From the NCBI GenBank assembly GCA_026120035.1, contig JALRME010000011.1, positions 744,001 to 808,000 of the forward strand: a stretch of 64,000 nt of DNA, in the 5' to 3' direction. Below are positions 25,439 through 48,376 of this stretch, piece by piece. Within the stretch, counting starts at the first letter, position 1, and the number at the start of each line of letters is the position of its first letter. This DNA is from Coleophoma eucalyptorum (Eukaryota > Ascomycota > Leotiomycetes > Helotiales > Dermateaceae). The notes under the pieces are model-generated. The model made no database searches. It was not told where the DNA came from and saw nothing but the letters and a program-made list of their open reading frames with translations. The position numbers and the translations under genes are program-made.

Positions 25439-27089
25439 TTAACCGACAACTCCACTGAGCTTGAGCGACTTGATTTCCTCATCGCCTGTGTGTAATATCT
25501 CCTTCAGTATCATGTCGGTATGCTGTCCTAGGGTAGGGGGAGGTGATCTGATACCTGGCGTCGAATACGAGTATTTGACAGGCGTATTGATAAGTTTCAA
25601 ACGACCACATGCAGGATGCTCGACTTCTTTAATCATATCTCGCGCAAGAACTGCATTTTGTAAGCAAGGATAGACCATACTCCTATATATCGATACGTAC
25701 CATGTTCATGATTCACGGTATCCAAAAGGTCATTGACCTTGGCATACGGCAATCCTGTCCCTTCAAATATGTCAAGCCACTGTTGAGTCGTTTTCGTCAT
25801 GGTAATTTCTTCTATCCATGCTTCGAGTACGTCTCGATTTGCAACACGTCTATCATTAGTGACGAAACGCTCGTCAGAAGCCCATTCTGGCTTTTCTAAT
25901 CCAACACAGAGAAGACCAAAGAGCCGGTCATTGCCGCCACCGACGAGGAAGTCACCGTCAGATGTCTTGAAAGCACGGTACGGCACAACGGAAGCTTGTG
26001 AATAGTTAGCTACCTGTTATTGAAAAACAACAAAGCAATACCAACGGTGAGCAGTTCCCCAGCGACCAGAATCCCTTTCCCCAGAAACCAAGACTGATTC
26101 GGCCATATTTGATAAAGTCGCGACCTGGCAGTCACTCAATGCAATGTCCAAATGCTGACCTGCACCCGTCATCGCGCGGCCAAGGAGGGCTGCCATGATG
26201 CTATTCGCTGCATATAAACCGGTTGTCAGGTCAGTCACGGCACAACCAACCTTCACAGGTGGTCCATCACGAGTGCCCGTGATATGCATAAGGCCCATTT
26301 CTCTAGTGTCAAGGATGACTTTAGCATGTATTATAAATAAGACAAGTGAGGTTACCTTACGCTTCGACCATGACATCGTATCCTGCTCGATTACTATATG
26401 GACCTGTTTGACCATATCCTGTGATACTGGCATAGATCAACTTTGGATTTTCCTTGCTAAGGGCCGCATAATCAAGCCCGTATTTCTTGAGCGAATTAGG
26501 TAAGTAATTTTCAACCAAGACGTCCGCACTAGCTGTTAATTGGCGTATCAAGTCTACTCCTCGTTGGTCCTTGAATGAGATCCCGATTGATTTCTTATTT
26601 CTATTAACCTTGAAATGTTAGCTAAGCTCCACAAGGCTTGAGGGAGAAAGATAGTACTGATAGATAATAAGCACTTTCACCCCTTCCTCCTCGACCGTCC
26701 CGGAAGCTTGCATATGGTGGACCCCATGATCGAGTGTCATCACCACGAGTAGGATGCTCAACTTTGATAACTTCGGCTCTGTTCAATAGGTCAGTGGCTT
26801 AAAAGTTCTGACCAAGTAATTGAGCCTACCCAAGGTCACCTAATATCTGAGTGCAGTAAGGCTATTGATAATAACAACAGCGATAATTAGCCGAGCATCA
26901 TACTGTAGAAGAAGGTGTGAAAGGAAAACCCACTCCAGCTAGCACTCTGGTCAGGTCTATTATCCGCAATCCAGAGAGCGGTAGGCTCTTGGTGGCTGCT
27001 GGTGTTTGTGCTGCGGTGAGAAAGTTGCGTCTACACCTTGTAAGTGGCAGGTGGAGCTTGTGAGCCGATATGAAAAGAGCAGAGTTCAT
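25439..27089 (-). CDS. Class III (CaiB/BaiF) CoA-transferase, probably mitochondrial
   Basis: 439 aa in seven exons (27089-26934, 26861-26830, 26778-26658, 26608-26361, 26302-26046, 25994-25701, 25650-25439), introns 49-72 nt. Residues 1-40 are basic and hydroxylated without acidic residues and look like a mitochondrial presequence. The fold is marked by [54 protein letters not shown] and [15 protein letters not shown]. Asp181 in AGYDVMVEA aligns with the aspartate that forms the acyl-aspartyl intermediate in formyl-CoA transferase. It resembles SUGCT-type succinate/dicarboxylate CoA-transferases, so the likely reaction moves CoA from succinyl-CoA to a dicarboxylic acid. It forms the left edge of the catabolic cluster. 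Exon 2 is only 32 nt. Confidence 0.93.
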
Positions 27090-28225
27090 AATTCGAAACA
27101 AATCCTTTAGGAGTCAGAAAACGACAAGATAATAAAACTTCGATCCTTGCATATGGTGGAGAGGATCGGGTGTTCTAAGCATGCAGCCAAAGCAAGAGTC
27201 TTATCGGAAAATGAAGAGTTCTCATAGAGTTGTGTTTTCATTTGCCAATCAGCGTCGGGCCACAGATGTGACAGATATAGTAGTTGATCTGATGTGGCTG
27301 CTACAATACAACACAACGAAACACAACAGAGTTTGATAGCATAAGATGAAGATCCCACATGTCCCGCAGGAGGAGGAGTACGTGAGGTAGGTATGCAAGC
27401 CCCACATGCACAACGGGTTATGAACTGGTAATATGTACTTTATGAACTCTTCGTGTCCGGGATCTTTACGGATCCGCTACCCCGCATTAGCGACTCTAAT
27501 TTACTTTCCGGAAGTCGACTTTCTTCACGTATTCATATAATGCTGTATCTTCTTTTCTTTTTTTCATTCACGAGCAAATCTCGTGTTCCAATCTTCTTTT
27601 GTCACAACGTTACTTGGCCGTCCTCAGTTCCCAAACACCCCTTGCTAGAAGATCAACCCGAGCACTTCATTGAGCTGCTCACTGTTTGATGAACCCTTGC
27701 TTTGGAAAACCCTATATACGACGGCAGAAGACCTTGAATAATAAATTAATTAACCTCGTATTCTACGTAATGTTACGTTGACCGTATGCTCACATATCGA
27801 TCTTAGAAAAGTTGCGCCCTGAAATCCTCTACGATCGTCCTCAACTCAGAGCAGTTATGTGGGGCCAGTAAGCGGTCATACATAGGCGAAGATTGTCTTG
27901 CGGATGTCCTATCTTTAGGGAAACTGGACCAAGCCACAGAGTAAGGAGACATGTTTGGCCTAGTGAGATGTAATACGGGAATCATTTGTGGGAAGACTGC
28001 ATGAAAGGAAATACCATAATTTCAATAAGACGGCTATTGTCATTTTCGTTGAAGAGCTAGACTTTTAGGGATAATTGGAAATCCACCCAATCCCTATCAA
28101 TTCCAATAAAGCACAGAAGTACAACCAGAAGGACAGAAAAGATCAGATTTATTTGAGATTTAGAATTATACACACTAAACGCAGCCAGAAAGAGGTTGTG
28201 CCAATTTTTCAAAGTTGGGGGCCTA
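27090..28225. other. Intergenic region
   Basis: About 1.1 kb with the CoA-transferase promoter at the left and the 3' flank of the PLP-enzyme gene at the right. Short frames inside (for example near 27453-27689) start or end without splice signals and show no domain. Confidence 0.5.
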
Positions 28226-29467
28226 TTAAGCTGCGGGAATATCTAATTCAAGGCCCTTTTTTAAGACTCGCACAAACGATGCCACGTCTTCTGTAGAATT
28301 ATAGAATCCAAATGAAACTCTGACACCACATCTGTAATGCGACACAAGCACCCCTTCATCCTTGAAATGGCCCTGCCATCTCGGATCTATCAACTGCAAG
28401 ATATACAGATGAGGAGCTCGGCGTTCGGCTAGTGGAGACCCCACGATCTTAACGCCTAGCTTCTCCATCTCAAGACCAAGCACGCAACCCAAAGATCGCA
28501 AATGCTTTTCAATATTCGTCATTCCCACATCGGTTAAGAAAGTCAGGTAGTCATGAAGAGGATGGAGTGAGATGAGTGAGATATTTAAGTGCTCGTAGCG
28601 ACGAGCCGTTGAATGATATTGGACATCAACCGAAGCAAGAAGAGAAGCATCCAAATTCGAGATCGCACCAGCACCCACAATAGGTGGTGTTCTCTTCAAT
28701 GTAGTCAGAGTCTTGGGCTCAATGTACAAAACTCCAAGTCCAGTAGGGGCGGCAAGGCCCTTGTGACAGCCAAAGGCGGCGGCCGAGACTCCAAGATCGA
28801 GAAGATCAATAGGAGCAACACCAACGTGTTGTGTCATATCGACAAGTACATGAATATTACGAGCACGAAATACAGTGCAGATGTCCTTGACGTTGTTGAG
28901 CTGACCGGAATGAAACATGACGGAAGACAAGCCAATTGCACGCGTCTTTGAATCGACACTAGAAGCAAAGGTCGAGGCATCGGCGTAAGGTTCTTGCCCT
29001 TTGGTATCAACCATGCGGATCTCGAGACCTTGTTCTTGGAGAGCCAGCCAACCATAGGCATGGTTTGGGTGCTCAGTGTCCAAAATGACAACATTGTCCC
29101 CAGGCTCAAAGATGATAGAGCGCTGGAAGAGGTTCAGGCCCTCAGTTGTGTCTCTGGTGAAAATAAGGCTGTCCGAGGCGACATTGAGATATTTTCCTAA
29201 GAGAGCTCGTGTAGATTCACAAGTTTTCTGCCATCCGGGCTTGGGGTGAGATTCGAATTGGGCTTCGTCCAAAAACTTGTCGATGGCTTGCCGCACAATG
29301 CGATTCATCGGAGGTTGAAAAGAGGCATTCAAATATGTGATTCCTGGCTTTTGTACCACTGGGACAAGATCGCGGTAATGTGCGATGTCGTATTTATTTG
29401 ATGGTTGAAAGCTTTCGTTGGTGAATAAGAACCGTTTTGGCTCTGGCGTCTCGATTAAGCCGACCAT
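28226..29467 (-). CDS. Class V aminotransferase-like PLP enzyme (isopenicillin-N-epimerase/cysteine desulfurase-like)
   Basis: Intronless gene for 413 aa in the fold-type I PLP superfamily, class V. The cofactor site is visible: FTRDTTEGLN at 103-112 (phosphate/ring contacts), VLVDMTQHVG at 207-216 with Asp210 for the pyridine nitrogen, and Lys236 in FGCHKGLAAPTG as the Schiff-base lysine. The C-terminal RCGVRVSFGFYNSTEDV block is typical of the NifS/isopenicillin-N epimerase group. Reactions in this group include transamination, beta-elimination, desulfuration and epimerisation; sequence alone does not decide. It is transcribed divergently from the amino-acid permease over a 763-bp shared promoter, which suggests an amino-acid-like substrate. 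A TATATAAG on the minus strand lies about 130 bp upstream of the ATG. Confidence 0.9.
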   Translation of the reverse strand: MVGLIETPEPKRFLFTNESFQPSNKYDIAHYRDLVPVVQKPGITYLNASFQPPMNRIVRQAIDKFLDEAQFESHPKPGWQKTCESTRALLGKYLNVASDSLIFTRDTTEGLNLFQRSIIFEPGDNVVILDTEHPNHAYGWLALQEQGLEIRMVDTKGQEPYADASTFASSVDSKTRAIGLSSVMFHSGQLNNVKDICTVFRARNIHVLVDMTQHVGVAPIDLLDLGVSAAAFGCHKGLAAPTGLGVLYIEPKTLTTLKRTPPIVGAGAISNLDASLLASVDVQYHSTARRYEHLNISLISLHPLHDYLTFLTDVGMTNIEKHLRSLGCVLGLEMEKLGVKIVGSPLAERRAPHLYILQLIDPRWQGHFKDEGVLVSHYRCGVRVSFGFYNSTEDVASFVRVLKKGLELDIPAA

Positions 29468-30230
29468 GTTGAAACTGGGAGATTTCTCCTGATATTATGT
29501 GGAATCTATTAGAGAGATTTCAGATATGATAGCAGCGGAGAGACTGAAGAATATACCAAGTTGAATATATCATGATATGTGTGGTCTCCTACACTTATAT
29601 ACCGAGGACATTCTTTCTAGCCAAAGTGGTAGGGTGAGCAGTGTATGCAAAGGCCCACTATAGAGATGGTTGGTTGAAGGAATGGGATGCGCTTAGAACG
29701 GAGTCCAAACTCCTTGATAATTCACATATCGTGAATTGAATTCTATTGTAAACAGGTATTAATCAAAGTAGTTTAGCATGTTCAATAAAGGGTTCTGTGG
29801 AATGATTGCCGCGCCTATACCAAGGATTAAGCGACCATCACGTATCCTAGTGTAGCACCTAAACGGACTTCAAAGTCCGTCGCACCAATCAAAACACTCT
29901 GACCTCCACCGGCCTTGAGGGTCCGTTTAAGCCCACTTCTGAATAACCTGATGACACTGTATAGAGAGCCCTATCTTGCTTGTTATTGTCTTCCTATCTG
30001 TTCCTCAGCGACGATTTCTATCCTTATCGAAGGTGGAGACAAAGGCAGATTACGTCTCGTACCCAAAGGCCTCAGATAAGGGTGGCCTGTGGTGGCTATA
30101 AGTCTTGTAAGCAGAGGAGATATAGAAACACTATGGTGAGCTACTAGAACTATAAAAATTCAAGACTATAGCAGATTACTGCTTTTTGCTGTTACATTCA
30201 CAACTTGAACGAAAAATTTCGAGATCTGCC
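29468..30230. promoter_or_regulatory. Divergent promoter between PLP enzyme and amino-acid permease
   Basis: This 763-bp region serves both genes. TATA-like sequences sit at about 29594-29602 (minus, for the PLP enzyme) and 30149-30157 (CTATAAAAAT, plus, for the permease). Between them lie an 18-bp perfect palindrome (29863-29880) and a weaker related inverted repeat (29700-29713). Confidence 0.7.
29863..29880. promoter_or_regulatory. 18-bp palindrome with CGG-N10-CCG core, candidate Zn2Cys6 site
   Basis: ACGGACTT-CA-AAGTCCGT is a perfect inverted repeat. Its core is CGG, ten bases, CCG, the inverted-triplet arrangement bound by Zn(II)2Cys6 dimers (the Put3 spacing). A cluster-encoded Zn2Cys6 regulator lies about 3 kb away. 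A related GGAGT-CCAA-ACTCC repeat is at 29700-29713, and a TAAACGGAC/GTCCGTTTA pair (29860-29868 and 29921-29929) flanks the region, so a small foldback transposon relic is an alternative reading. Confidence 0.5.
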
Positions 30231-32202
30231 ATGTCTATATCATCTACTACTTACGTAGCGCCAAAAAAATCCTCCCCTATGCATACTGCAGGGCGTCGCC
30301 TATCTTCCACATCAAATAGCAGTCAAATCAATGGCGAGGTTGAAGATAGCTTTTCTAACAACTTAAGACGAGAGTTCCGTCCCCACCATGTCGCCATGCT
30401 CTCAATTGCTGGTGCAATTGGCACTGGTCTTATCATTGGCTCAGGTACAGCGCTAGCCAGAGGGGGTCCAGCGAGCCTGTTACTGGCTTATTCGGTCATT
30501 GGAGTCGTCATTTACTTTGTTATGACATCCCTTGGAGAGATGGCTGCTTTCTTGCCCATGGACCAAGGTTTCAATGGGTATGCTACTCGATATGTTGATC
30601 CCGCACTTGGGTAAGTATTGCAATTATACGAGTGGCATAAATTCTATGTTAATATTTATAGCTTTGCCACGGGCTGGAATTATTTCTTCAAGTATGCTAT
30701 GGTGCTTCCAAACAACCTTACAGCTGCTGGCTTAATTATCCAATATTGGAGGCCAGATCTGAATGTTGCGATCTGGGTCACAGTGTTTGCCGTAGTAATC
30801 ATAACAATCAATGTAAGCAGTTTTTACACTTTATTCTTACCAACCTAGATAAATCGAGTCATTCTTACATAACTTTAGGTTCTGCATGTTTCTTCATTTG
30901 GGGAATCGGAATTCATTCTCGCAACTGTAAAGGCCCTGGTACTGCTTGTGGTCATTCTTGCGTGCTTCATTATTTCAGCCGGAGGGTCACCGTCAGGTCA
31001 AGTTATCGGATTTAAATACTGGCATGAACCAGGCGCTTTTGCCACATACCTATTACCAGGGTCGACTGGACGATTCCTAGGCTTCTGGGCTTGTCTGGTT
31101 CAAGCATGCTTCGCGTACACTGGAACAGAAGTCGTTGGAGCGGCATATGGAGAGACCCCGAACTCCAGACGTAATATCCCGAGATCCGTGGGTCAGACTC
31201 TTTGGCGGATTTGTATCTTCTATATTCTTGGTGTTTGGGCTTTAGGAATGGCTGTACCCTACAACAATGAGCGTCTTGTCGGAGCTACGAAAGCCAAGAT
31301 CAGCGCTGGTAAGTTTGCGGCGTCCTATTCTTCAAAGGTTACATTAATGACCTAATTCTGCTATATAGCTGCTTCGCCTTTTGTTATTGCCATAAAGTTG
31401 GCTGGCATCAAATATCTTCCTGATATTATCAATGCATGTCTACTGGTATTCGTTATCAGCTCTGCAAATACTGGTGCGTATTTATAGAAGACGTGGTTGG
31501 GAACTATGCTAATGAGACCAGACGTGTATGTTGCATCAAGGACTCTGCATTCCCTTGCTAAAGATGGCCAAGCGCCTAAATTATTTCTCAAAACCAATGC
31601 TCGAGGAGTTCCGCTTTACGCTGTGGGCGTTTCATCCCTTTTTGCGCTTCTAGCTTATATGAATGTCAACACAGCAGCATCGACAGTGTTTGGGTATTTT
31701 GTCAGTCTTGTTACAGTATTTGGTACAATTAACTGGATCAACATCTTATGTTCATATATTGGATTTCGAAAAGGCCTCAAAGCGCAAGGCATTCCGTTGT
31801 CAGACCTTCCTTACCAAGGACCTTTTCAGCCATATGGAGCATACATCTCCTTGGCACTTACAATCTTAATCACTTTTTTCAATGGTCGGTTTTGTACCTG
31901 TATTTCTGCACACACATATCGTATTCTAATAGGTTTTGGCTCTTCTAGGATACAACGCATTTATTCCTCAATTCACCGTTTCTACCTTTTTCACATCCTA
32001 TATCGGCATCATAGTTTACATTTTCCTCCTCTTTGGTTGGAAAATTATGCATCGAACCAAACGTGTCAAGCCTCTTGAGATGGATTTACACACAGATAGA
32101 CGCAGATATGAGGAGGAAGAGGTAATGGCAAATACAGTAAGGGAAGCCAAGGGAAAATTACCATTCTGGAAAGCTCCTTTCGCAAAAGTTTTCTCAGGCT
32201 GA
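30231..32202 (+). CDS. Amino-acid permease (APC superfamily, fungal YAT type)
   Basis: 560 aa in six exons (30231-30610, 30662-30812, 30879-31308, 31369-31473, 31522-31884, 31949-32202), introns 48-66 nt. A hydrophilic N-tail of about 58 residues is followed by the first membrane block HHVAMLSIAGAIGTGLIIGS, the amino-acid permease signature. Later blocks include GEMAAFLPM, FACxGTE-like FAYTGTEVVGAAYGE, and SANTDVYVASRTLHSLAKDG, all continuous only when the introns are removed. The Ser-rich, Lys-containing tail fits ubiquitin-regulated fungal permeases of the plasma membrane. Transport of an amino acid or amino-acid-like aromatic is expected by proton symport. It is paired divergently with the PLP enzyme. 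Confidence 0.95.
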
Positions 32203-32444
32203 AGTGGAAGCGAAGTCAAGTTTTAGTGTATTGGAAAGCAGGATATTAATATTTTACATGTTTGTTTATTTCAACTTATTTACAGCTTAATGGTGACCAT
32301 GCCTTGGTATACAATGAATCAGTGTTATACCGCCCTGCCTTGTCACACCGCAAAGCTCGACACCATAAAAACTAAACGTATGAAACATTAGAAGTTTAAA
32401 AGTAGTAAGCACCTAGAATATGCATGAAACAAATGATTATTGCC

Positions 32445-34786
32445 TTAGTTATCTAATGGCATCCAAATACCACCGAAGAGGTCTCCATATGTATCTGTGA
32501 ACATAGCATCTTCCGTTACACTCTGACTGTTCCAAGCATCCATAAACCAAGAACTCTCATCCATAGTCTGAGAAGACATGTCGATAGCTGTTAAATCCAG
32601 AGCTTGCCTGCTTGTGCTCGAGTTTCCAGAAGGTAAGATTGTCGAATAGGCATGAGATGATGGCATTTGTAAGATATGACTTGATACTGTCAGCTCAGTG
32701 GCGTCATTATCTGTGCCCTGCACATGGGTAGCACCGTAGCACTTTCGAAGGCTATTTTGAACTCTGATCTTTGCTTCGGCGGCAATCTTGTATGTCAACG
32801 AACATTCCTCTAGCACTTTGACTACAAATGACAGACGAGGATCTGCCACAGCATCTGTGGTTGATTCAGGCCTCAAGAGCAGGATCGCACTTCCTGCCAT
32901 AACTGCTGCATAGACAAAAATGATAGAGGAACTGCGCAAGTTGCCCTGAGCACGAAGTTGTCGCAAAAGATTAATAATACTGTCGGCTGAAAACTCGCTG
33001 ACACTTCTAGATTGTAGCACTGGTGGAAATCCCGGCGAAGGGCGAATGAAGTGGCGATTGAGACTAATGAGTATGCTATGATAAAGGACACTGCGAGTTC
33101 GCAAAGTCAGTAGGAGCAGATTATGGGTGATTTTAAAAGAAGTCTTACTGAACCATTGCTATGTGAGCTTGTACTGAGCTCAGAGAGGAGGTAAGCAATA
33201 GCTCTGCTGGCAATGCCGAATACCAGCGACTTAAAGATGTATTTAGAGAACTTAATCTATTGGACCGTAGACTCTTTCGGGTACTAAGATCTCCTGATGA
33301 TTTTGGAGAGAAAAATTGTGACAATACGTCCTGAGTCATTTTGCTTAAGTCAATCATGCACCGGAATGTGGCAACCATTCTGAGTTTGGCTGCTGATTTG
33401 AGCTGCTGGTTGAGGCCAAACCACGTATGCGTCTCTGGAAAATCGCTAAAAATAATTAATGACATTAATCTAGATTGGCAACAGTGGCACCCTTACGGAA
33501 GAGGTTCAGTCGGGTTAACATTGGCATCTTCCTCATGAAGAAATATAGGACGACCAAGATACAAGCTGATGAGTCTGGTCAGATGTTAACAACCACTGTA
33601 AGGCACCAAGGAATAAGATGGTAAAGTACTTGTCTGCCACATAGCAACCCCAGTATATCCTTCTTCTGATTTCTCTATCTTCTTTTGTATCGCATGTCTC
33701 GTCTTTTCCTAACCAAAGTTTTGGATCTTGCTGAAAGCCTAGTTCCTGGCCAATACGAAACGCCATTCCTACTCCATGTTAGCTACTGTACTACAATTTG
33801 AGGAACTTCTAACCAGAAAGCGACCATCCCTTTGAATGGTTACCATTTCCAATCTCATAGAAGGCCAGACAGAGAAGTGCTTGTATGGTTGTAATATGTG
33901 GGTTTTCAAGCTCGTCGACAATAATCATACTTTGAGCCCTCGTGCTAAGTTCGCTACATTTATTTCTCATACTCTGCTCTGGAGAAATAGCAGCCCCCAA
34001 GACACATATTGCATATAGCAGCGGATATGACCAGTACTTTCCAACACTCTGGTCGTCAAAGTAATCCTTTAAGAAAGCTTCACGATAAACAAACATAAAT
34101 TGAGGATACTGGCTTGTGAAGAACAATGAGAGTGCTTCGTTAATAAATCCATCCTCAAGTTCCAGCCCAGGAAACTGATTTCCGGAATGTGGTTTACTAT
34201 GCCTTGCACGAGGAGGTGCATTGCGGGGTAGTGACTGTCCCTGTGGATACATTTCTTCTTGGTACATGCTTGTTGGTCCATGGTAAAGTAAAGACCCTGC
34301 AAAGTATTAGTAGTGAAGGTGACTGCAGAGCAGATCTGCCATAGTATACCATGAGAACTAGTCTGTAATGACATCGTTCTTTCCTTCTCTATAGGAGGTG
34401 CTTCCTCGATTACTCGATTGCTGTCATCGGCAGGAGACACTTTTGGTAAGTGGTCTTGAAATTGTACATCCTTTAACATGTTATCTCTGTCTTGATTCGA
34501 AGCGCCCTTGAGAGCCTCAACGTAAGACTCAAACCAGGCAACCCGATTTTCGAGAGCTAGAACATATTGACTTGAGGCTGGTCGACGCTTGACATCATGA
34601 TCTCGAAACTTGCATTCTTGGCCTGCTTGGGTACAGTTACTGCAGGGAGTCTGTCGTGTACATTTAATCTAGAAATATTGTCAATTATATCTAAGAATCC
34701 CAGAGAGAAGTTAAATCATTAACCTTGCGCAGCTGGCATCTTAGACAACTAAAGCCAGCGTCGACATCAACATCAGCGTGTTCCAT
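32445..34786 (-). CDS. Zn(II)2Cys6 transcription factor with fungal-specific regulatory domain
   Basis: 674 aa in seven exons (34786-34724, 34668-34350, 34296-33814, 33768-33630, 33574-33497, 33445-33149, 33090-32445), introns 45-58 nt. The binuclear zinc cluster is Cys14, 17, 24, 30, 33 and 40 (C-x2-C-x6-C-x5-C-x2-C-x6-C), split by intron 1 between the third-cysteine lead KIK and the upstream half. A short linker is followed by the fungal_trans middle domain, marked by RRRIYWGCYVADKLISLYLG and EPLPDFPETHTWFG. The acidic C-tail may activate. It shares a 506-bp divergent promoter with the SCOT-type gene and sits mid-cluster, so a pathway-specific activator role is the natural inference. Such proteins usually bind CGG triplets. 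Confidence 0.93.
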
Positions 34787-35292
34787 TCTTTTGAGGCTCC
34801 GAAGACATGTTCAGCTTACGAAATGCGTTTCAAAGACCCCCCGACCCCAGATGGTATGGCACTAGATGCACCACAAGTTTTGGGCATCTTCAAATGAATG
34901 TATTGAAGTGCTAAAAGGGAAATAAGATCTATATACAGAGCAGAAAGAGAGTTGACAATCTCGTGATAAGCTATCATGAACATTCCCAAGGTGGGGGCTG
35001 CATTAGTCATCATATGCTCTTTGCGACAGCAATACTTGTCTACCCGCTGCTATATTCAAAAAGATACCACTATGCGCCTCCATCGCTTTGAGGCTATTGA
35101 GATACGTTATTAAACCAGGGCTTATTTGTGAGTACTCATCACATGATAGATATGCTACCATTGCCTATGCGGGGCTCATGTGGGGTCTCCAAAATACCAT
35201 ATTGTGAATTTAATGAGCAATTTGACAATTGATAGTAGAAGAGTTTTGGAATAAACATAACTCCTGAAATAGCCTCAATTATAATTGTCAAA
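34787..35292. promoter_or_regulatory. Divergent promoter between Zn2Cys6 regulator and SCOT-type gene
   Basis: 506 bp separate the two start codons. I see no CGG/CCG inverted pair of ordinary spacing here, unlike the other two divergent promoters. The small frame at 34816-35013 (-) has no support. Confidence 0.6.
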
Positions 35293-37079: not shown

Positions 37080-37304
37080 ACTACACAAGTCTTTAATTAG
37101 AGTTCAGAGGATAAGAGAAAGTTTTACGAATTTGCTTCTTAATAAAGGATTACTCGATACTCAAAGCTCAACCATTTCAGAACCAAGAGCATTTTTCTAA
37201 GACTAGCCAATTGGCCCAAAAATTCTTCCAATCTCTCCATACTCACTTTTAGTGATCAATAGAGGTTGTGGGCAATTTTCTCGACTGTTGAGATTCTTAG
37301 TATG

Positions 37305-38727: not shown

Positions 38728-38974
38728 TCTGATTTACCCGCGACTTGATTCACCTCAATTAATTTTCACACAATATTTATTCTTGATTTCAAATTCTGGA
38801 TACCTTATAAATGTGCCCGCGTAAGATCAACGACGCGGGGCAGAAACGTGGGGTCTCGCTCGCTTGTAGACGTGTGGGATCAAAGTAAGCCTACCTACCC
38901 AAGGTGGATTTTGTTGCGCTGAAAGATTCTGCGCTGCGAAAGTACCAAGCTAGCTGACTTTCGCATCTAAAAGT
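38728..38974. promoter_or_regulatory. Bidirectional promoter of maleylacetate reductase-like gene and thiolase
   Basis: Only 247 bp separate the two start codons. A TATAAA-like sequence near 38805-38810 (CTTATAAATG) is centrally placed. A 24-bp GC-rich dyad follows at 38816-38839. The compact layout implies co-regulation. Confidence 0.75.
38816..38839. promoter_or_regulatory. GC-rich dyad CCCGCGT-N10-ACGCGGG
   Basis: A perfect 7-bp inverted repeat with a 10-bp spacer lies between two divergent cluster genes. It holds CCG and CGG triplets pointing outward (everted), a layout used by some Zn2Cys6 dimers. Another CCCGCG lies at 38737-38742, and CGCGGG occurs at 40889-40894 upstream of the lyase gene. 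Confidence 0.5.
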
Positions 38975-40374
38975 ATGGCGAATATACTAAGAGCCACAAG
39001 AAATATATTTCAGAAGTCTCCTCATGACATCGTCTTGCTTTCTGCTGTCAGAAGCCCGATAACGCGGGCATTCAAAGGAGGGCTGAAAGATGCTTGTCCA
39101 GAGGACATATTGATGCCAGTACGCCTAGTGAAAGAAATGGTGATAGATTTTGTGCAGGAAATTTATTGATTCACATCTTAGGTTATGAAAGCTGCAGCCG
39201 AACGAGCTCAAATATCACCCAGAGACGTCGAGGATGTATTGATCGGTAATGTCCTCGCTGAGCTCGGATTTGCGAAGACGGGACGAATGGCATTAAACCA
39301 CGCAGGATTTCCATCTACGACAACGTTTCACACCGTGAATAGACAGTGCTCAAGCAGTTTACAAGCCTTGACACATCTCTCCCATTCCATCATGGCTGGG
39401 CAGATATCTGTAGCCATGGCTGGAGGCGTTGAGAGCATGTCCAAGAATTATGAGACGCGAGGTATTCCGAAGAATGTCTCACCAACTCTCCTCAACTCGG
39501 ATGTGAAAGATGCTAGAGATTGTTTGATGCCAATGGGAATTACATCAGAGAATGTGGCAGAGCGGTACGGTATTTCGAGGAGATTACAAGACGAATATGC
39601 GCTTGAGAGTCAACGGCGGGCAGCAGAAGCTCAGATGAGAGGGTACTTCGAGGATGAAATTGTGCCTATAGTTATCTCCAAAGAATTGAGTAGAGAAAGT
39701 GAGGATATTATCATATCACTTGACGACGGTATTCGATCATCAGTTACTCTCCAAAAGCTTGCGGAACTAAGGCCCGCCTTCAAAAAGGACGGAACAAGCA
39801 CAGCTGGTAATTCGTATGTGCCCAATTATTTTGTTGTATATAAGAGAATATAGAGCTAATTTATTAATCTATAAAGTTCTCAGATTTCAGATGGTTCATC
39901 TGCCACACTTATTGCCCGTAGATCATGGGCAGAGGAAAGAGGCCTTCAACCCCTTGGAAAGTTTGTAGGAACACAAGTGAAAGGCTGTGCACCAGATGAA
40001 ATGGGAATCGGCCCGGCTCTGGCTATCCCAGCACTTTATTTTTATACAGGCATACATCAAAGAGATATCGATCTGTTCGAGATCAACGAGGCTTTTGCCA
40101 GCCAGACAATCTATTGCCTAAACAAGCTTGGCCTCGATTATGAGAAAGTCAACATACATGGCGGTGCCATTGCACTTGGTCATCCCACCGGTGCTACTGG
40201 TACAAGACAAGTAGCTACCTTGTTCTCCTCTTTGAAAAGGCTCGACAAGGAAATTGGAGTTGTGAGCATGTGCGCCAGGCAAGTTCGTCTCAATAGGAAT
40301 TTTAAGGACACAAGCTGATGAGGTTTTGCAGTACTGGTCATGGAGTTGCTTCATTATTCATTCGAGAAGCATAA
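38975..40374 (+). CDS. Thiolase (acetyl-CoA acyltransferase; candidate 3-oxoadipyl-CoA thiolase)
   Basis: 409 aa in four exons (38975-39127, 39182-39813, 39877-40278, 40332-40374). Cys107 in NRQCSSSLQAL is the acyl-accepting cysteine, followed by MAGGVESMS. NEAFASQ, HGGAIALGHPTGATG and the C-terminal MCASTGHG supply the remaining active-site His and Cys. The last intron is GC-AG (CCAG/GCAAGT), and splicing it rebuilds the MCASTGHG loop. The first intron uses a weak donor (GTGAAA); a donor 15 nt later is possible. Thiolases of this degradative class split 3-oxoacyl-CoA; with SCOT and the maleylacetate reductase-like neighbours, 3-oxoadipyl-CoA to succinyl-CoA plus acetyl-CoA is the suggested step. 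There is no PTS1 tripeptide; the N-terminus is weakly amphipathic. Confidence 0.93.
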
Positions 40375-40951
40375 AAACTCGGTATGAGATTAGAAACAGG
40401 TTCAAAGGTGATTTGTTATCTATAGGTGTCATATTTCAAGATGTTTTGATTGTCATTTGGCTGGTTTAGCACCTAAATCCGTCGCTAAACTTGAGACCGT
40501 GCTGCTTCCCTGAGTGCTTCTTGGGGAGATCATTCGCATTGCTCCGAAAAATAACCATTCTATCTAATCGTTCAGATCTTGAATCCTCTAATGCATTCCA
40601 ATTTGAAAAGTATTGATGCTGGACTGAACTAGGATTAGAATAAAGTTCTTTAGCCTTGGACGTTGAAGCACATGACGCTCGTGGGGCTTTTGCATTACCG
40701 CACCTATTTTATTCCCCACCATTACGAGATACATTTTCTAGCTAAGAAAGCCCCATCTGTATCCATCAAAGCCGCCAGTTTGATCATTTGAGGACACAAA
40801 AGCGACACCTTGAGCGAGATTTTAATAGCTCTAAATGATTTGAAGTCTCCTGAGGCTCGCATGTAAGTGTGGGCTACCGTTGTACTTTCGCGGGCACTGA
40901 ATAAACTGCCACTACGATAACTTACCAATTCTTGAAGTGCTTGTTAAAACG
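40375..40951. other. Promoter region of the lyase gene
   Basis: 577 bp downstream of the thiolase. It contains GTTTAGC-N13-GCTAAAC (40464-40490), whose middle shares a block with the palindrome region upstream of the permease, and CGCGGG at 40889-40894. No gene seen. Confidence 0.55.
40464..40490. promoter_or_regulatory. Inverted repeat sharing a split block with the permease promoter
   Basis: GTTTAGC and GCTAAAC flank 13 bp. Inside and overlapping is TAGCACCTAAA directly followed by TCCGTCGC (40467-40485). The same two words occur at 29853-29863 and 29876-29883, separated there by 12 bp that form half of the CGG-N10-CCG palindrome. The shared block is either a control element or a trace of the same small mobile element. 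Confidence 0.45.
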
Positions 40952-42450
40952 ATGCTGCTATCGACACGATTTCTTTCAATTGGTGCACGAAGAATAAAAC
41001 CCAAGCTACTTTTTACTGCTTGTCTGCAAAGCAGAACAGTGGGTTCTGTGGGTGCAATAGACTCCAGCATTTTCAGATCGCTATTCGGTACTGAAGAGAT
41101 AAGAAAGGCATGTATGCATATAGAAGCTCCAGCTTGAAGCAAAGACTGACATATAATTCCAAACAGATATTTGATGACAATGCCTACATAAACCGATGTA
41201 TAGACGCCGAAACAGCTCTTGCTCGGGCGCAGTCAAAATGCGGTGTTATTCCTTCGCATATTGGCCAAGAAATCACTGCACGAGCCGACTCTCGGGAGCT
41301 TGATTTTGAAATATTGAGAAAGGAGACTGAGATTGTCGGATATCCGATTTTACCACTGGTCCGCCAGCTTTCTGTCGCTTGCGGAGATGAAGCTGGGAAA
41401 TTCTTACATTGGGGGGCAACAACCCAGGATATCATGGACATAGCTAGTGTGCTGCAAATGAAGTCTGGGCTGGAAGTGGTCGAACGACTTCTGAAGCAAG
41501 TCATCACGTCGTTATCAAACCTTGCAGAAAAACACAAAGCAACGCCGATGGCAGGTCGAACGCACTTACAGCATGCGCTCCCGGTCACTTTTGGCTACAA
41601 ATGTGCCGTATGGCTTTCTGGTTTCCAGCGACATCTGGAAAGACTTGAGCAGCTGAAGCCTCGAGCGCTACTTGTCCAATTTGGCGGTGCTGCAGGGACT
41701 TTGGCCTCCTTAGGGGACGGCGATGATGGGCTTCGAGTTCGCAAAGCCTTAGCAGAGGAATTATCTCTGGAAAACCCCTCCATCACATGGCATGTCGCGA
41801 GAGATGGAGTGGCCGAGATAACCAACTTCTTGGCATTGGTGGGTGGAACACTGGGCAAAGTGGCTATGGATCTTATCATCATGTCCTCGAATGAGCTTTC
41901 TGAAGTAGCGGAACCATTTGTCATGCATCGAGGAGCTTCATCAACAATGCCTCAGAAGCGCAACCCGATATCAAGCGAAGTAATACTCGCAGCTTCCAAG
42001 ATCCTTCGTTCAAATGCTGGTCTAGTTTTAGATGGCATGGTTGCCGACTTCGAACGAGCAAGCGGCCCTTGGCATTTAGAGTGGGTTGCAATCCCAGAGA
42101 GCTTTGTAATTGCAGTTGGAGCGTTAACACAAGCCGATTTTGCACTTTCCGGCCTTTGCGTCTATAGCAACAATATGTTGGATAATCTACATTCCACCAA
42201 AGGGTTAATTATTGCCGAGGCAGTTATGATGGGTCTAGCTCCCCATCTTGGTCGACAAGCTGCACACGATGTAGTCTACGAAGGGTGCAAAGAGTGCATT
42301 GAAAAAGATATTTCATTGTTTGATTGTCTTGTACAGAAGGAAGAGATCTTGAAGTCGTTGCCAGAAGATAGGCTGAGAACGTTGTGTGATCCTGCGAAAT
42401 ACCTTGGTGCTTGTCGTCAAATGGTGGAAGATGTATTGTCTTTGAATTAA
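40952..42450 (+). CDS. Fumarase/aspartase-superfamily lyase, PcaB (class II 3-carboxymuconate cycloisomerase)-like
   Basis: 479 aa in two exons (40952-41107, 41167-42450). The intron appears to be GC-AG (AAAG/GCATGT...CAG, 59 nt with a CTGAC branch). Splicing it joins SLFGTEEIRK to IFDDNAYINR, matching the start of bacterial PcaB proteins. Superfamily marks are HWGATTQDIMDIA, GRTHLQHALPVTFG and the signature GASSTMPQKRNPIS. The body aligns best in pattern with 3-carboxy-cis,cis-muconate cycloisomerase and adenylosuccinate lyase. Fungal protocatechuate pathways normally use an unrelated beta-propeller cycloisomerase, so this is unusual. The 30 residues before the domain are basic and look like a mitochondrial presequence. 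Role: cycloisomerisation, or elimination of fumarate from a succinylated amine; undecided. Confidence 0.9.
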
Positions 42451-43145
42451 ACCTTTTGGCATCTGTTTGAGTACCTTATGACAGTGGTATTTTTGTGAAT
42501 TATTTATTATGGCTCTTAGTATGCGATAGTCCTCGAAGGCAGTTCTCAAGAAATGCTGCATTGCCGTATTTTCCAAAACACAAATTTAAGTAGACAAATT
42601 TCATGTTGAAGTGAGTAGGAACTATCTTTTCTTTCAAACCCACCAAACTAAATCTGGATTCTGTATGTCTAGATGCCTTATTCCACTTCCTCTTCTCCCG
42701 TCATCTCCTGAGTGTCATCTCACTCCTCGCTTCTCGGCTATTCCACAGTTTCCTCAGACCGAAGGCCCCGCATGGAGAAGGCAGTAGGACAAAAAGCCCC
42801 ACATTGCAACATCCCATCACAGACCAAGCGTCGGAGATTTCTCAGACGACTTGCAACAGTATCTCCATTAGAAAACTGCACCCCAGATTTCTCCCTGGCA
42901 CAGTTGGATTGGGAATTGTGTCTCCACCACCATGTCAGCTTCCCACCTGCTGGTAGAATGTGGTGGTTACGCCCCATCAAGCTCGAGAAGATGTGAGACT
43001 TTGCTTAGAGTGTCGTCTGATGCAAATTGAATTAGTATATAACCCGAAATAACACTTGATTTCCAAAAATTACAATTCAGTTCTCTCTGACTTAGCATTT
43101 TTGCAAATCTCAAAAAACCACAAAGCTAAAGCGCAGCTATTCAAA
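42451..43145. other. Promoter region of the homogentisate-dioxygenase-like gene
   Basis: 695 bp. A TATATAA at 43036-43042 lies about 105 bp before the ATG. CGG and CCG triplets occur near 42735-42770 at long spacing. A 95-codon frame at 42712-42996 starts with GTG and has no domain. Confidence 0.5.
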
Positions 43146-44905
43146 ATGGACTCTATCAAGGAACGAAAGGTGGTGGAAGACATTCAAAGAGTGTTCCACT
43201 TTACCGACCTCCAAAGCAAATCTCCAACCCGTGCAAACGATCCCTATGAATACCAGCCGGGGTGGGGAAACAGACACCAGTCCGAACTAATCCCGGGTAC
43301 ACTTCCAATCGCCCAAAATAATCCACAGGAGACACGCTTCAAACTGTACACCGAAGGAATCACTTATTCGGCTTTTGGAGCTCCTCGACATGCCAACTTC
43401 AGTACTTACATGTATCGAGCACGGCCGTCTGCTGCACATAGTAAGGGGTATTTCCCCTCTAAAGAGTACCCAGAACTAATAAAACCTCATAGTGGGCTTT
43501 AACCCCATAGATTCTACTGCTGATATTGAGAACTGTTTTCTGTCCAATAACGCCGCAGTGGAAACACTTCCAGAACAAGCAGAATGGTCACCATTTCCCA
43601 TTCCCGCAACCCCAACCGACTTTATCGATGGTCTGCATACCCTCGGAGGAAGCGGTGATCCAAACCTTCGTCAAGGAATGGCTCTATATGTGTACATGTT
43701 CACGAAGTCTATGGAGCAAAGAGCCTTTTGTAACGCGGATGGCGACTTCCTCTTCTGCCCACAACTCGGCACCCTTGATGTACAAACCGAGATGGGGATG
43801 CTATATGTGCAACCCGGAGAAATCCTCGTTGTTCCACGAGGTGTCCGCGTATCTATTCGTCTTGGCGAAGGCTCGCCCGCTGCTAGGGGATATATCACTG
43901 AAGTCTGGGGAAGCCACTTTGAATTGCCTGACTTGGGACCCATAGGAGGTCACGGTCTGGCTAATCCGCGAGATTTCTTGTATCCCATTGCACACATTGA
44001 TGAGGATCTACATATAGCTTTTGAAGTTGTCTACAAGATGAACGGCAAGTACTATGCTATCGAGCAAGATCACAGTCCCTTCGATGTCCTAGCATGGCAT
44101 GGAAATGTACTGCCATACAAGGTGCGTCATCAACATCTTAACTATGGAAACTGTTCTGAAGAAAATGCAGTACGACCTCACCAAGTTCTCCTCACAAAAC
44201 AGTACTAGCATCGACCACACCGACCCATCCGTGAACACTGTCCTAACCGCCAAATCCCACGATCCCAACACACCGTTAGTAGACTTCATCTGGCTTGGTC
44301 CTCGCTGGGACGTAGCCTCAAATACATTCCGACCTCCTTATTACCACCGCAACTCAGCCTCTGAGTTCCTCGCTTGCCTATATGGCAATATTTTCGTGCG
44401 GTCTGATGATTTCCAGTCTGGCGGTGCCAGCTTTGAAGGCGGCCACACGCCACATGGTGGATTTGGTGACGAGTATGTATACGAGATGCAGATCCAGGAG
44501 AATCAACCAAGGAGAATCCTTGAACGTAAGCAGCAGTCTGTTTCATGCCAAGATATCAGAGAATGCTAAGTTTCACCTGCAGATCAAATGACTATCATGG
44601 TCGAATCATCGCGCACGCTCCTCTGGACCGAGTACGCGCGAAAAGGTTGTGAATGTCTCCATCTGAAAGGAACAAATCCTAAAGTTTGGGACAAACTCCT
44701 AGACCATTTCAGTGCCAATCCTCTAGCGAAGAAACTACTTGATGCTGTGAAGGAAGACCGTAAAGCTGCAAAGTTGAAGAGAGAGCTGTTGCTTGATGAT
44801 AGTAAGCTGCAGGCACTGCTAAGCGCGGAATACGTTCAGGGCAACGGTACTAAGAATAATGCACATGTAGAGGATCTTCCTGTTTATCAAGTTAAAACTG
44901 TTTGA
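43146..44905 (+). CDS. Homogentisate 1,2-dioxygenase-like extradiol-type dioxygenase (divergent paralogue)
   Basis: 533 aa in four exons (43146-43440, 43493-44121, 44171-44525, 44583-44905), introns 49-57 nt. The bicupin HGD fold is recognisable: YQPGWGNRHQSE, YTEGITYSAFGAPR, DGDFLFCPQLGTL, LYVQPGEILVVPRG, LPYKYDLTKF. The Fe ligands align by spacing with human HGD: His367, Glu373 and His403 (human 335, 341, 371), and the active-site His324 with human 292. The segment right after the ligands (NSASEFLACLYGNIFVR) differs from the canonical MSEFMGL block, and the protein is about 90 residues longer than usual HGD, with a charged C-terminal extension. It should cleave a hydroquinone-type ring; homogentisate itself is uncertain because its usual partner genes are not nearby. 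Confidence 0.92.
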
Positions 44906-45081
44906 CGTGGATGTGTATTTATTCTATTTTATTTCTTGTTTAGCCATAGTATACCGTCACTCATTTATAATAATATTGCGAAACCTTCATCGAAGTGTGT
45001 CAGAAAAATCTTTCAAGTTCCGCCGCATAAACTCCAAAAAAGTTATGTACATAACCTCGTTCTTGAGAACGGTAAATCACT

Positions 45082-48000
45082 CTATCCTACATCGACTAGC
45101 GTGTCACTCATAATCCGTAAGATTTGTGAGTGGGTCCCAGTCTTCCATTTCGCAGCCTCCTCAATCGTTGCCGCATACATCAATAAGATACTTTTTGTCG
45201 AAGAGTAGCTAGGCTCATAAATAACATCATCGAGTTGGATTTTTCCTCCATGGCGAATAAACTTGACGATTGGATCCGTGATATCACCGGTCTGTTCTTC
45301 ATCGTTGTCCACGAGGCCTTCATTGCCGACCCTCCGCCAATCAACATCTCCAAGTAACTCAACCGGTTCAGCGGAAGCATCACTTCTAGATGCTGTATAC
45401 ATTTGCAACCCGATCACTAAGGCTGCTGTGAATAGGGTGGTGGAGAAGTGAAACATAACCCCGTCCGAAGCACGACGTTGCGTTGCAGCCTTCATCGTCT
45501 GAGCAGCATGCACACAGGCTCGTCTGGCTGCCGGCGTTGCCGACCAGGTAGCAAGGTCTTTGAGAGATTTTCGGCCAAGATCTGCACCACCTGCACCAGC
45601 AGCAAGATCAAGGATTCGCACATTGCCCGTCAACATTATGCAGATGTTGTGCCACAGCATCAGGCAATTTGGCTTCATGTCTCTGAGATTGTTCTCGTAC
45701 CTCTCGCAGACCTCGAGGGTCATCGGCACGCAAATTTTGGCTCTTTCGTCTTCTGCATATACTCGCCATGGTGTAGAGTTTTGGGCCGGGACACTTCTTG
45801 GTGTTAATATAAGTTGGGAATAAGCATCCGAGACGCGGAGTCGAATGCTCGATAGCAGTCCATGCATTGTGAACATGTTGATCTTTGTCGTCAAGTCTGG
45901 GAGACTAAAAGTTTCTGGCCGCATCTCAATTACTGGAGACTTTGCTTCTGCGCCATTTCTAAACAATAAGGCCCAGCTTTCTGCACTCTTTGCTGTATAC
46001 AACTGGCTCTCACAAGCTAAGTGTAGCCTCAATACATCGGTTGATAGTACAGGTGTAGCATGTAGACATCCAGAGAACCAGGTATCGACCATGACTGCAC
46101 ATACAATGAGTCTGAGTGGGATCAGTAATGGAAATCATGATTTGGGTTAGAGTACGCGCCTCTTTGCGGACTCAGCTCGAGCCCAATTCCACCATGAGGT
46201 TTTAAGATTACCATTGTGACCCAGTGTCTCGATATCTACTTCTTCGTGGTCGTTCTGCTTGAAAAGCCCGTGTTGCTGCATCAACTAGAAAGGGTTAATT
46301 CAGAACATTAACAACTAACATATCTCAAGTATACCGTGATTGTCGTGATATATAGCGAATGGCATAGTTCTGAATCATGCTGGCCCTTTTTCAGAGTAAG
46401 CCTTCGGTATCTTAGGGTAGGTGGCCAAGTCTACCTACTCCTAGCATTTCCCCAAGCGTAATAACCAAATAAGAGGTAGCAAAAGTCCTCAGAAGGTCTG
46501 CGGGCGAGCCTTTACTGAATCGGACCGCCGAGATCTCAGCAGTGACTCTCTGCAGAAGGGCCTCGGAAGTTTGAGTAACGTATTTTGGTTCAAGGTGTGT
46601 TTGCACTTACAGGGAAAAGCCTCCGAACAAAGGCAGTTGATCTCTTAGTATCAAGAATATTTAACCCAATGAGGCACATAGCAAAGAGCAAAGAATTAGG
46701 AACTGTTTGCGGGTCAAAAGTCGGAACATGGATGAAGGGCATTAAAGGGTGGAACTGTCGAAAATACAAATCCAAGCTAATATCAAGGATTTCGGCCGAA
46801 GGAAATTCGGGGGTTGCGAAAGATATTACACTTCCACTTTCTGATAGCGACGCTGTCGGAGAGGCTGCATTAATCTCGTAGCTTCCGAGAGGCACTGAAG
46901 GCAGAGCTTTTGTCGCCTGGAAGATAGTCTCCAATCTCGACTTGCAATCTTCGTTCAGCCCCCAGCGCGTATCTTGCTTGCTCGACTGCAGTGCCAATGG
47001 GACTGAGTAGGCTGATAGCAGATTCATGGCACCTTCATTCTCTAGGGCTTTCCACATGGTTGGCATCAGCTGGTTGATTTTGATCCAACGTCTCGGCCAG
47101 CACTTCTCAACTCTCGCGAACCTCTCGCTTGGCACTTCGCTCTCTTTAGTGTTTTTGGATGAGTATACTGCTGGCTCGGTAGTAGCAGATAGAGATAACC
47201 CGTAGTCAAGCTCCATAAAATCTAGATTGTGATATGGGACTTGGGAGTCGGTTGAAAACTGATGAATCCATTCATCCATCCCCTGATCCTGCAAAGAAGC
47301 TATGGGCTGAAGTGAGGTCAAGCCTGCATGGCCATTTCGCGTTTCAGTTGGCATCTCTTGCAAATCTTCGAGACTATTATGATCATCTCGATTGCGTATG
47401 GACTGCTGACCCTGTTGCTCAAGAGGAGATTCCAACATTGGCAGTGCTCGATTAAGAGAAACTGCCTCGACAATATCTAAATCTATCGCTATCTGGTTAT
47501 CAAAGAGCACTTGGTCCCATCCAGCAGATGGTGGCCTTGGTCTCTGGGTTATTCGTTGATTGCCCAGCATCGAGTAAGATCTTGGCTGGCTCCTTTTCCA
47601 GTTTTCCCGGGGCTGGTCATGTCCGGTAATGGGTGAGCACACATTCATCTGATCATCAGTCATCCTCCGAATACCATGTTGGGTGCTTGGGCTTTCATGG
47701 CCACTCTGTAAATCTTCCACGCTTGTACTCGTTCGGCGTTTATCCTGCTGCAAGGAAACGGTAGCTAAAGCATTCAACCCCGTAGTTTGCGATGCCACCG
47801 CTGACGAGTGAAATATCTGGGAACTTTGAATATCATTAGAGGCATCCGACAGCAACGACTGTATCTGGCGGGCTGTCAATGATTCCAATCCCAGTGAATG
47901 TTCGGTAGGCAGAGTGTCCGCTGGTGGAATTTCAGGCTGAACTCCTTGCCCTTCCTGCTCTACCCCTTGCAGATTCTCCGAGGCCGCTACTTCAGAATCC

Positions 48001-48376
48001 TTCGTGTGATGCTTCAAATGGCGAGTTAAGACATCGCTATATAGAATTCAGTAAATAATTCAAAATATATGTCTTCCTGCTAAAGTAACTGAGGAGAATT
48101 CACCTTCTCGAGTAAGACTTCCTGCAGAAAACACAAGTATATGGTCTTTCTCCGGTATCTTCGGATGATCAGCCAGTTCGAATTCCACCATCTAGGAAAG
48201 GAATAAAGGAACTCACGGGTCCTTTGGTGTCTCTTGAGATGTTCAGACTTGATGAATCGCCGTTCGCAGTACTTGCACTTTTTCTTGGTAGGCCCACTTC
48301 GCCTGTACGACCCCTCAATGGGTGAGCCGACTCTGTCACTGCCGAGGGGTTTGTTAGCAGCAACTTCGACAGACAT
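45082..48376 (-). CDS. C2H2 zinc-finger transcription factor with fungal_trans domain
   Basis: 972 aa in six exons (48376-48217, 48158-48104, 48036-46611, 46561-46439, 46284-46160, 46111-45082). Two N-terminal C2H2 fingers span exons 1-3: Cys34/Cys37/His50/His54 and Cys62/Cys65/His78/His82, joined by the classic THTGERPY linker. A long Ser/Gln-rich region follows, then the fungal-specific regulatory domain, with LDLYFRQFHPLMPFIHVPTF, MCLIGLNIL and WWNWARAESAKR. The last intron seems to be GC-AG (AGAG/GCGCGT, 48 nt), since only that gives AESAKRLIVCAVMVDTWF. Intron 4 (154 nt) is long for this window and might hide a small exon. The architecture resembles other C2H2 plus fungal_trans regulators. 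It closes the right side of the cluster and may be a second regulator. Confidence 0.9.

Follow-up and report, generated by a model that had tools for sequence, protein, structure and literature searches.

A conserved six-gene cluster of filamentous ascomycetes with a probable role in hydroquinone-type aromatic catabolism

Introduction

Which pathway is encoded where a fungal genome places a ring-cleaving enzyme of the homogentisate dioxygenase family beside a lyase of the fumarase/aspartase superfamily and enzymes of the 3-oxoadipate kind? The question is raised by a locus of Coleophoma eucalyptorum, within a window of 64,000 nucleotides that was analysed as a whole (positions 744001-808000 of contig JALRME010000011.1, here C4, from an assembly of 45.3 Mb in 101 contigs). 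All positions below are those of the window. A sequence-only reading had proposed a ten-gene catabolic cluster at 25439-48376 that acts on an amino-acid-like aromatic substrate. The follow-up described here supports a smaller unit: the genes SCT, MAR, THI, PCB, HGD and CAT form a conserved gene cluster. We would call the locus a conserved, putatively aromatic-catabolic cluster of filamentous ascomycetes, a variant of the hydroquinone-cleavage and 3-oxoadipate kind.

How fungi break down lignin-derived aromatics is so far charted only in part. FAMeDB, a curated database of 2026, recognizes eight fungal central ring-opening intermediates, and 15 years ago fungal genes had been described for just one of these (PMC13094099). 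In the open literature, represented mostly by titles and the beginnings of abstracts, no description was found of an HGD-family enzyme together with a PcaB-like lyase, a maleylacetate reductase, a CoA-transferase of the succinyl-coenzyme A (CoA):3-oxoacid type (SCOT) and a thiolase. A linked set found repeatedly, in several groups of filamentous ascomycetes, offers a concrete additional candidate route that is amenable to gene deletion, and it would lead to the re-annotation of many fungal entries now named "homogentisate 1,2-dioxygenase" and "3-carboxymuconate cycloisomerase".

Six linked genes form a recurrent core

The ring-cleaving enzyme HGD (43146-44905, plus strand; 533 amino acids (aa), 4 exons; HgmA_N/C domains) belongs to the homogentisate dioxygenase family and to a separate fungal clade within it. 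PCB (40952-42450, plus strand; 479 aa, 2 exons, the intron modelled as GC-AG; Lyase_1 and ADSL_C) is a lyase of the PcaB-like branch of the fumarase/aspartase superfamily. MAR (37305-38727, minus strand; 387 aa, 6 exons; Fe-ADH) resembles maleylacetate reductases of the iron-dependent alcohol dehydrogenase family, SCT (35293-37079, plus strand; 524 aa, 5 exons; CoA_trans) is a SCOT-type 3-oxoacid CoA-transferase, and THI (38975-40374, plus strand; 406 aa, 4 exons, the last intron modelled as GC-AG; Thiolase_N/C) is a thiolase. CAT (25439-27089, minus strand; 439 aa, 7 exons; CoA_transf_3) is a class III CoA-transferase of the SUGCT/CaiB family. Spliced models of all ten genes were predicted from the sequence by script and by hand; each is in frame with a single terminal stop, and together they cover exactly 25439-48376. 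The GC-AG introns, three of 39 (in THI, PCB and the regulator gene TF2), were chosen because family-typical sequence was thereby restored, and the last exon of MAR is the least certain part of the models. The ten genes and families named by the sequence-only reading are thus borne out, with Pfam agreeing on each family. Among the matches listed, the closest protein relatives come from Coleophoma (HGD, 88% identity; MAR, 85%) and Phlyctema (PCB, 82%), both of which we place in the Helotiales.

Linkage in other fungi was read from the locus tags, shared contigs and fused gene models of annotated fungal proteins; three protein lists held the best 120 rows each, and absence from a list is uninformative. 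Four species whose PCB and HGD rows apparently differ in strain or assembly of origin (Aspergillus niger, Paecilomyces variotii, Clonostachys rosea and Elasticomyces elasticus) were dropped. Among the matches listed, PCB and HGD are found on one contig in 14 of the 15 species that could be compared, and their tags are consecutive in all seven species whose rows carry one tag prefix (Penicillium alfredii, with HGD as NUU61_009267 and PCB as NUU61_009268, Fusarium torreyae, F. lateritium, F. nematophilum, Oculimacula yallundae, Scytalidium lignicola and Verticillium albo-atrum). From the same matches, MAR and HGD lie on one contig in seven of seven species, two of them with contigs of 95-96 kb, and MAR and PCB do so in three of three. 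The tags of Oculimacula run from MAR (5819) to PCB (5821) and HGD (5822). In Didymosphaeria, MAR (011596) is followed by a fused model of HGD and CAT (011599; P0149), the CAT part of which is 64% identical to the window CAT. A second fused model joins MAR to a SCOT in Polyplosphaeria (P0322; SCOT part 73% identical to the window SCT). In a third, from Thermoascus thermophilus (P0043), the Pfam column has a Thiolase_C domain ahead of PCB; the thiolase remnants in that species are too broken for a BLAST match to THI at 1e-8. The core is drawn as SCT, MAR, THI, PCB, HGD and CAT because of this contig and tag linkage and the three fused models. Its recurrence in other fungi indicates a more-than-chance grouping.

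The joint conservation that the sequence-only reading had predicted therefore holds for six genes, and its count of ten is left unsupported. CLV (28226-29467, minus strand; 413 aa, single exon; Aminotran_5), a class V pyridoxal phosphate enzyme, is probably outside the conserved core: its relatives (63% and 54% identity, perhaps not orthologs) lie off the HGD contig in two of two species, Scytalidium and Xylogone, after Aureobasidium melanogenum had been dropped from the count. The genome of C. eucalyptorum holds no close CLV paralog, and the best NCBIfam match of CLV is SufS, far under the cut-off.

The ring-cleaving enzyme belongs to a separate clade

A tree of 120 HGD rows, built by a quick method and with several long branches flagged, places the window HGD within a fungal clade of 73 rows, with a support of 100 in the Shimodaira-Hasegawa-like approximate likelihood ratio test (SH-aLRT). 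Six further HGD-family genes are found in the genome of C. eucalyptorum, on contigs C29, C73, C53, C57, C11 and C12. The copies on C73, C29, C57 and C53 branch together, outside the window clade, and those on C73, C29 and C53 adjoin FAA_hydrolase genes. The C11 and C12 copies fall into other divergent HGD groups, and the window HGD stands apart from the C11 clade. The window clade is distinct from the tyrosine-pathway HGD. With the hmgA model TIGR01015 the window HGD, the one copy that was scored, reaches 462.3 bits, below the cut-off of 510.75.

Both residues of the HRNxxxE stretch that we take to be iron ligands, His and Glu, are kept in the window HGD; these are the two, out of three ligand positions, that were examined. 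An Ile occupies the position of Tyr346 in Pseudomonas putida and Tyr350 in human, presumably a substrate-contact position; the names of these two chains are our own attribution. Tyr appears at this position in none of the 78 rows that show the stretch, out of 80 on the side of the list to which the window HGD belongs (a set slightly wider than the 73-row clade), where Gly predominates (72 rows). It is present in the human and P. putida enzymes, in the copies on C29, C57, C12 and C73, and in every row (19 of 19) of the C11 clade; on C53 the exon stops short of the position. The missing Tyr favours a substrate other than homogentisate for the window HGD, with none named.

The lyase resembles eliminating enzymes

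Among solved structures, the closest relative of PCB is the "fumarate lyase" 3c8t (549 bits), presumably from Mesorhizobium, followed by trans-aconitate decarboxylase 1 (Tad1; 416 bits), which we take to be the Ustilago maydis enzyme, and by carboxymuconate cycloisomerases at 337 bits or less. PCB carries a Thr-His pair and the SSTMPxKxNP loop of eliminating lyases of the fumarase/aspartase superfamily, in which both presumably serve as catalytic motifs. In the alignment, the Thr-His pair is shared with 3c8t and with a relative from Aureimonas (56% identity), whereas a pca-operon PcaB, that of Sinorhizobium meliloti, has Thr-Arg, and Tad1 and a Bradyrhizobium relative (48%) have Ser-Asn. The pair is present in 119 of the best 120 fungal PCB rows, the remaining row lacking the stretch, and in all 80 bacterial rows.

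These comparisons bear on two candidate roles. A cycloisomerase of the pca type was rejected: the profile scores fall below the cut-offs (344.1 against 355.75 bits for TIGR02426; 461.2 against 595 for NF006554), the S. meliloti PcaB has Thr-Arg, and no intradiol dioxygenase was found on C4. The "PcaB-type lyase" of the sequence-only reading accordingly holds at the level of the superfamily branch but not as a pca-operon PcaB; PCB is about 31% identical to that of S. meliloti. The cyclase CmcA of A. niger is, we assume, unrelated to PcaB. A role as trans-aconitate decarboxylase was likewise rejected, given Thr-His in place of the Ser-Asn of Tad1 and of the itaconate-operon-like relative.

In a FastTree phylogeny of PCB the bacterial rows occupy one side of a branch, and the HGD-linked members are scattered through the fungal part. 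The bacterial context was examined in the best 80 loci, with flanks of up to 10 kb (some shorter) and the ten window proteins as queries at an E value of 1e-10. None of the 80 loci contains HGD, MAR, SCOT or thiolase, which argues that the bacterial relatives have a function of their own that is not aromatic; besides PCB, only CAT-like genes were matched, in four loci. Neighbour families were defined by clustering of the open frames, with a single representative of each named by Pfam, and the counts are rough because of long antisense frames in G+C-rich loci: a GntR-UTRA regulator accompanies 30 of the 80, a dicarboxylate symporter 24 and a fumarase/aspartase-type gene 12. Tricarboxylate-receptor (TctC) genes occur in three other loci (L050, L051 and L106), and a LysR gene in one (L049). 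With the Thr-His pair kept and dicarboxylate-type neighbours in bacteria, the most plausible reading of the PCB family is an eliminating lyase of the dicarboxylate type that the fungal cluster has recruited, and bacterial "PcaB" annotations in this branch may be wrong.

Three loci deserve mention for themselves. A plasmid of Aureimonas sp. AU20 (L130, 5098-10290) carries, one after another, a GntR gene, "pcaB", a dicarboxylate symporter and a class II fumarase, with no pca genes adjoining. On a plasmid of Bradyrhizobium sp. CB82 (L132, 1755-7344), dctA, a MaoC dehydratase, a CaiB CoA-transferase, a CoA ester lyase and a Tad1-like lyase with Ser-Asn stand together, and from its gene content this operon looks like one for trans-aconitate-to-itaconate catabolism. 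C. eucalyptorum itself has a second PCB-type lyase (C43, 128044-129502; 67% identity over the longer piece) with no cluster homologs close by; its region contains a sugar transporter and a terpene-synthase-like frame.

The remaining enzymes and their predicted compartments

MAR is 46% identical to the solved "MAR1" 9ph0 and scores 287 bits against it, compared with 94 for the maleylacetate reductase 3w5s; its relatives in the same genome are at most 38% identical, in partial matches. SCT exceeds the cut-offs of the pcaI/scoA and pcaJ/scoB family models. THI exceeds only that of the general thiolase model TIGR01930 (413 against 240.55 bits) and falls short for PcaF (275 against 597). The best NCBIfam model for CAT is succinate--glutarate CoA-transferase, at 373 bits under a cut-off of 750. 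The joint presence of the MAR, SCOT and thiolase families supports the proposal of the sequence-only reading that the cluster is catabolic and that its lower half fits the degradation of 3-oxoadipate. Elsewhere in the genome are two SCOT-like genes (65% and 51% identity), other thiolases (best 54%) and one SUGCT-like gene (75% and 60%, in two pieces), and the cluster copies of SCT, THI and CAT are therefore probably dedicated paralogs.

The N-terminus is basic and free of acidic residues in CAT and SCT, and basic in PCB. First stretches of 25 residues that are basic and acid-free occur in 59 of the 66 fungal PCB rows of 465-500 aa, against none of 82 HGD rows (P0121-P0202). By N-terminal composition, SCT, CAT, PCB and perhaps THI look mitochondrial, and HGD and MAR look cytosolic.

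Functions sought on the contig

The sequence-only reading had noted the lack of an intradiol dioxygenase and of a fumarylacetoacetase, and this extends to the whole of C4. On this contig, searches of the genome turned up neither an intradiol dioxygenase (PF00775; 16 matches in the genome, each of the 19 candidates scored) nor a hydrolase of the fumarylacetoacetase type (PF01557; 27 matches in the genome, all 27 candidates scored). For PF01494 monooxygenases none of 22 matches lies on C4, but their absence is not established since only 19 of 155 candidates were scored. No glutathione S-transferase domain was found by Pfam in the ten window proteins, maleylacetoacetate isomerase not having been searched for on its own. 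Nor is there a paralogous copy of the cluster among ten regions examined in the same genome.

Promoters and candidate regulators

The remaining genes encode an amino-acid permease of the APC type, PER (30231-32202, plus strand; 560 aa, 6 exons; AA_permease), and two regulators, TF1 (32445-34786, minus strand; 674 aa, 7 exons; Zn_clus, i.e. Zn2Cys6, and Fungal_trans) and TF2 (45082-48376, minus strand; 980 aa, 7 exons; C2H2 zinc fingers and Fungal_trans). Each of the five core promoters (3161 bp together) has the motif GTGGGG, with eight occurrences in total. Six of these occurrences have the longer form YGTGGGGY, of which the window has ten: upstream of CAT (27399-27406, minus strand; 27858-27865, plus strand), upstream of SCT (35179-35186, plus), in the 247-bp divergent promoter of MAR and THI (38847-38854, plus), upstream of PCB (40680-40687, plus) and upstream of HGD (42796-42803, minus). 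The other two are at 34991-34996 (plus) in the divergent promoter of TF1 and SCT and at 40714-40719 (minus), a second site upstream of PCB. No copy is present in 2430 bp made up of the promoter between CLV and PER, a stretch of 1024 bp ahead of TF2 and three convergent spacers; within the ten genes themselves there are five. Among the 6-mers common to all five core promoters GTGGGG ranks first. By the zinc-finger code, the two fingers of TF2 (helices SEHLKR and RSDVLTR) would favour GTG-GGG; the motif had been noticed before this.

The amino-acid-like aromatic substrate of the sequence-only reading is left unsupported, because CLV is unlinked and CLV and PER lack the core promoter motif. Their divergent promoter contains a CGG-N10-CCG inverted repeat, CGGACTTCAAAGTCCG, at 29864-29879, the sole full copy in the window; its form would suit a Zn2Cys6 regulator, for example TF1.

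A proposed pathway and its alternatives

Gene content, recurrent linkage, the HGD clade and the motif positions are directly established. On this basis the six genes probably, though by no means surely, constitute a catabolic cluster in which hydroquinone-type ring cleavage is followed by MAR, a lyase and CoA steps into central metabolism. HGD would cleave the ring of a substituted hydroquinone to give an unsaturated oxo-acid of the maleylacetate type, and MAR, by its family, would reduce the C=C bond. PCB, given its intact Thr-His pair and its bacterial relatives, may catalyse a beta-elimination of the fumarase type, either releasing a substituent from the ring-cleaved chain or splitting the chain. 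CAT might activate a second carboxylic acid of the pathway, the weakest of these steps, and TF2 may co-regulate the six core genes through the GTGGGG sites.

A bolder version is tentative and, in our view, has a modest chance of being right: the cluster could add a ninth central pathway of ring opening, one with a lyase step, to the eight that FAMeDB lists for fungi. HGD would then cleave a hydroquinone substituted at positions 2 and 6 (2,6-dimethoxyhydroquinone, derived from syringyl lignin, is one example), MAR would yield a 2-substituted 4-oxoadipate, PCB would eliminate the substituent (methanol in the example), and MAR would act again to give 3-oxoadipate. If so, the novelty that defines the route would be its step by a mitochondrial lyase of the fumarase superfamily. 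That 2,6-dimethoxyhydroquinone in particular is the substrate is very doubtful.

Known systems share parts of this gene set. The fungal hydroxyquinol/3-oxoadipate branch, with which the lower enzymes (maleylacetate reductase, 3-oxoadipate CoA-transferase and thiolase) are presumably shared, differs in using an intradiol hydroxyquinol dioxygenase where the window has an HGD-family enzyme, and PCB and CAT are extra in the window. This branch is the subject of work on Candida parapsilosis (PMC5144973). The homogentisate cluster hmgA-fahA-maiA has an HGD-family dioxygenase (PMC3914699), but the window contig lacks a fahA-type gene, the ten genes include no maiA, the HGD clade is another, and the lower half is of the 3-oxoadipate kind. 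Tyrosine and gentisate clusters differ in gene content (PMC3914699), the protocatechuate branch of A. niger relies on different genes for ring cleavage and for the cyclase, which is CmcA (PMC10406623), and the A. terreus 3-hydroxyanthranilate cluster consists of other enzymes (PMC7842363). The sequence-only reading's statement that the locus matches no standard cluster is thus supported in the main, with a qualification that concerns A. niger. There the methoxyhydroquinone pathway (VhyA, MhdA, a reductase and OmeA) also combines HGD-family hydroquinone cleavage with a MAR-like candidate reductase and ends in 3-oxoadipate, with mhdA beside the esterase gene omeA (PMC8336404; also PMC12388069).

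It is accordingly conceivable, though unlikely, that the window cluster is a lineage variant of the methoxyhydroquinone pathway (vanillate, guaiacyl lignin), with HGD as a methoxyhydroquinone 1,2-dioxygenase, MAR as the reductase and an unlinked esterase; a maleylacetate reductase is said to serve the hydroxyquinol and methoxyhydroquinone routes alike (PMC13094099). However, no esterase domain was found by Pfam in the ten proteins, while omeA adjoins mhdA in A. niger (PMC8336404), and PCB and CAT would have no role in that route. The window HGD clade may well differ from that of MhdA (NRRL3_10111): the clade's A. niger row (P0166) comprises just two sequences, which would be odd for a reference-strain gene. 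The lower half leaves room for another assignment, in which HGD acts on homogentisate and SCOT and thiolase use acetoacetate, chemistry that fits equally well. A homogentisate cluster was nevertheless rejected on the lack of a fumarylacetoacetase-type hydrolase on C4 (such genes adjoin the other HGD copies on C29, C53 and C73), the HGD clade and the residue at position 346; the sub-threshold hmgA score points the same way, a maleylacetate reductase would be left unexplained, and we hold this assignment to be very unlikely despite the family membership of HGD.

Proximity, and a common divergent promoter with a repeat that TF1 might read, would be expected if CLV and PER were true pathway members and the substrate an amino-acid-like aromatic. 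The absence of GTGGGG from that promoter and the position of CLV relatives off the HGD contig in both species (a tiny sample, maybe of paralogs) make this quite improbable. The second place of Tad1 among the solved relatives of PCB, and the Bradyrhizobium plasmid with its dctA, MaoC, CaiB and CoA ester lyase genes, suggest instead that PCB could be a trans-aconitate decarboxylase, forming with CAT an itaconate-type module that merely lies beside aromatic genes. That is extremely unlikely, given the Ser-Asn of Tad1 and the Bradyrhizobium relative against the Thr-His of PCB, and given that PCB adjoins HGD in what we take to be the Eurotiales, Hypocreales, Helotiales and others. Finally, that the genes are neighbours by chance and share no pathway is scarcely credible in view of the recurrent linkage and three independent fused models; nothing beyond the lack of expression data speaks for it.

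Several observations weigh against the preferred reading, a six-gene cluster for hydroquinone-type cleavage. The one PCB-HGD exception is Rhizodiscina, whose listed HGD (49% identity, other clade) is on a different contig, and shared contigs of chromosome size in several species are by themselves weak evidence of linkage. The ten genes include no upper-pathway oxygenase, and the aromatic partners are missing from the bacterial PCB loci. Tyr346 is also missing in a further fungal HGD clade (none of 14 rows) and in the solved chain 9pz4. The SCOT and thiolase families do not separate the use of 3-oxoadipate from that of acetoacetate; by the method of FAMeDB, the fungal 3-oxoadipyl-CoA thiolase KctA is hard to tell from beta-oxidation thiolase (PMC13094099). 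As for the promoter motif, GTGGGG was spotted by eye ahead of counting, and two copies, at 49563 and 49587, lie just past the stretch upstream of TF2 that was scored as empty. Its count is reached in none of 1000 shuffles, but in 339 of 1000 some 6-mer common to the five promoters performs equally well, so the motif is suggestive only and not significant as an unprompted find. It would also fit sites of the carbon-catabolite repressor CreA.

Neighbouring genes

Upstream of the cluster, overlapping open frames at 21836-22871 probably belong to a pirin-like gene. Downstream, an open frame of 1112 aa (50046-53384) is marked by many Ser and Pro residues and acidic runs.

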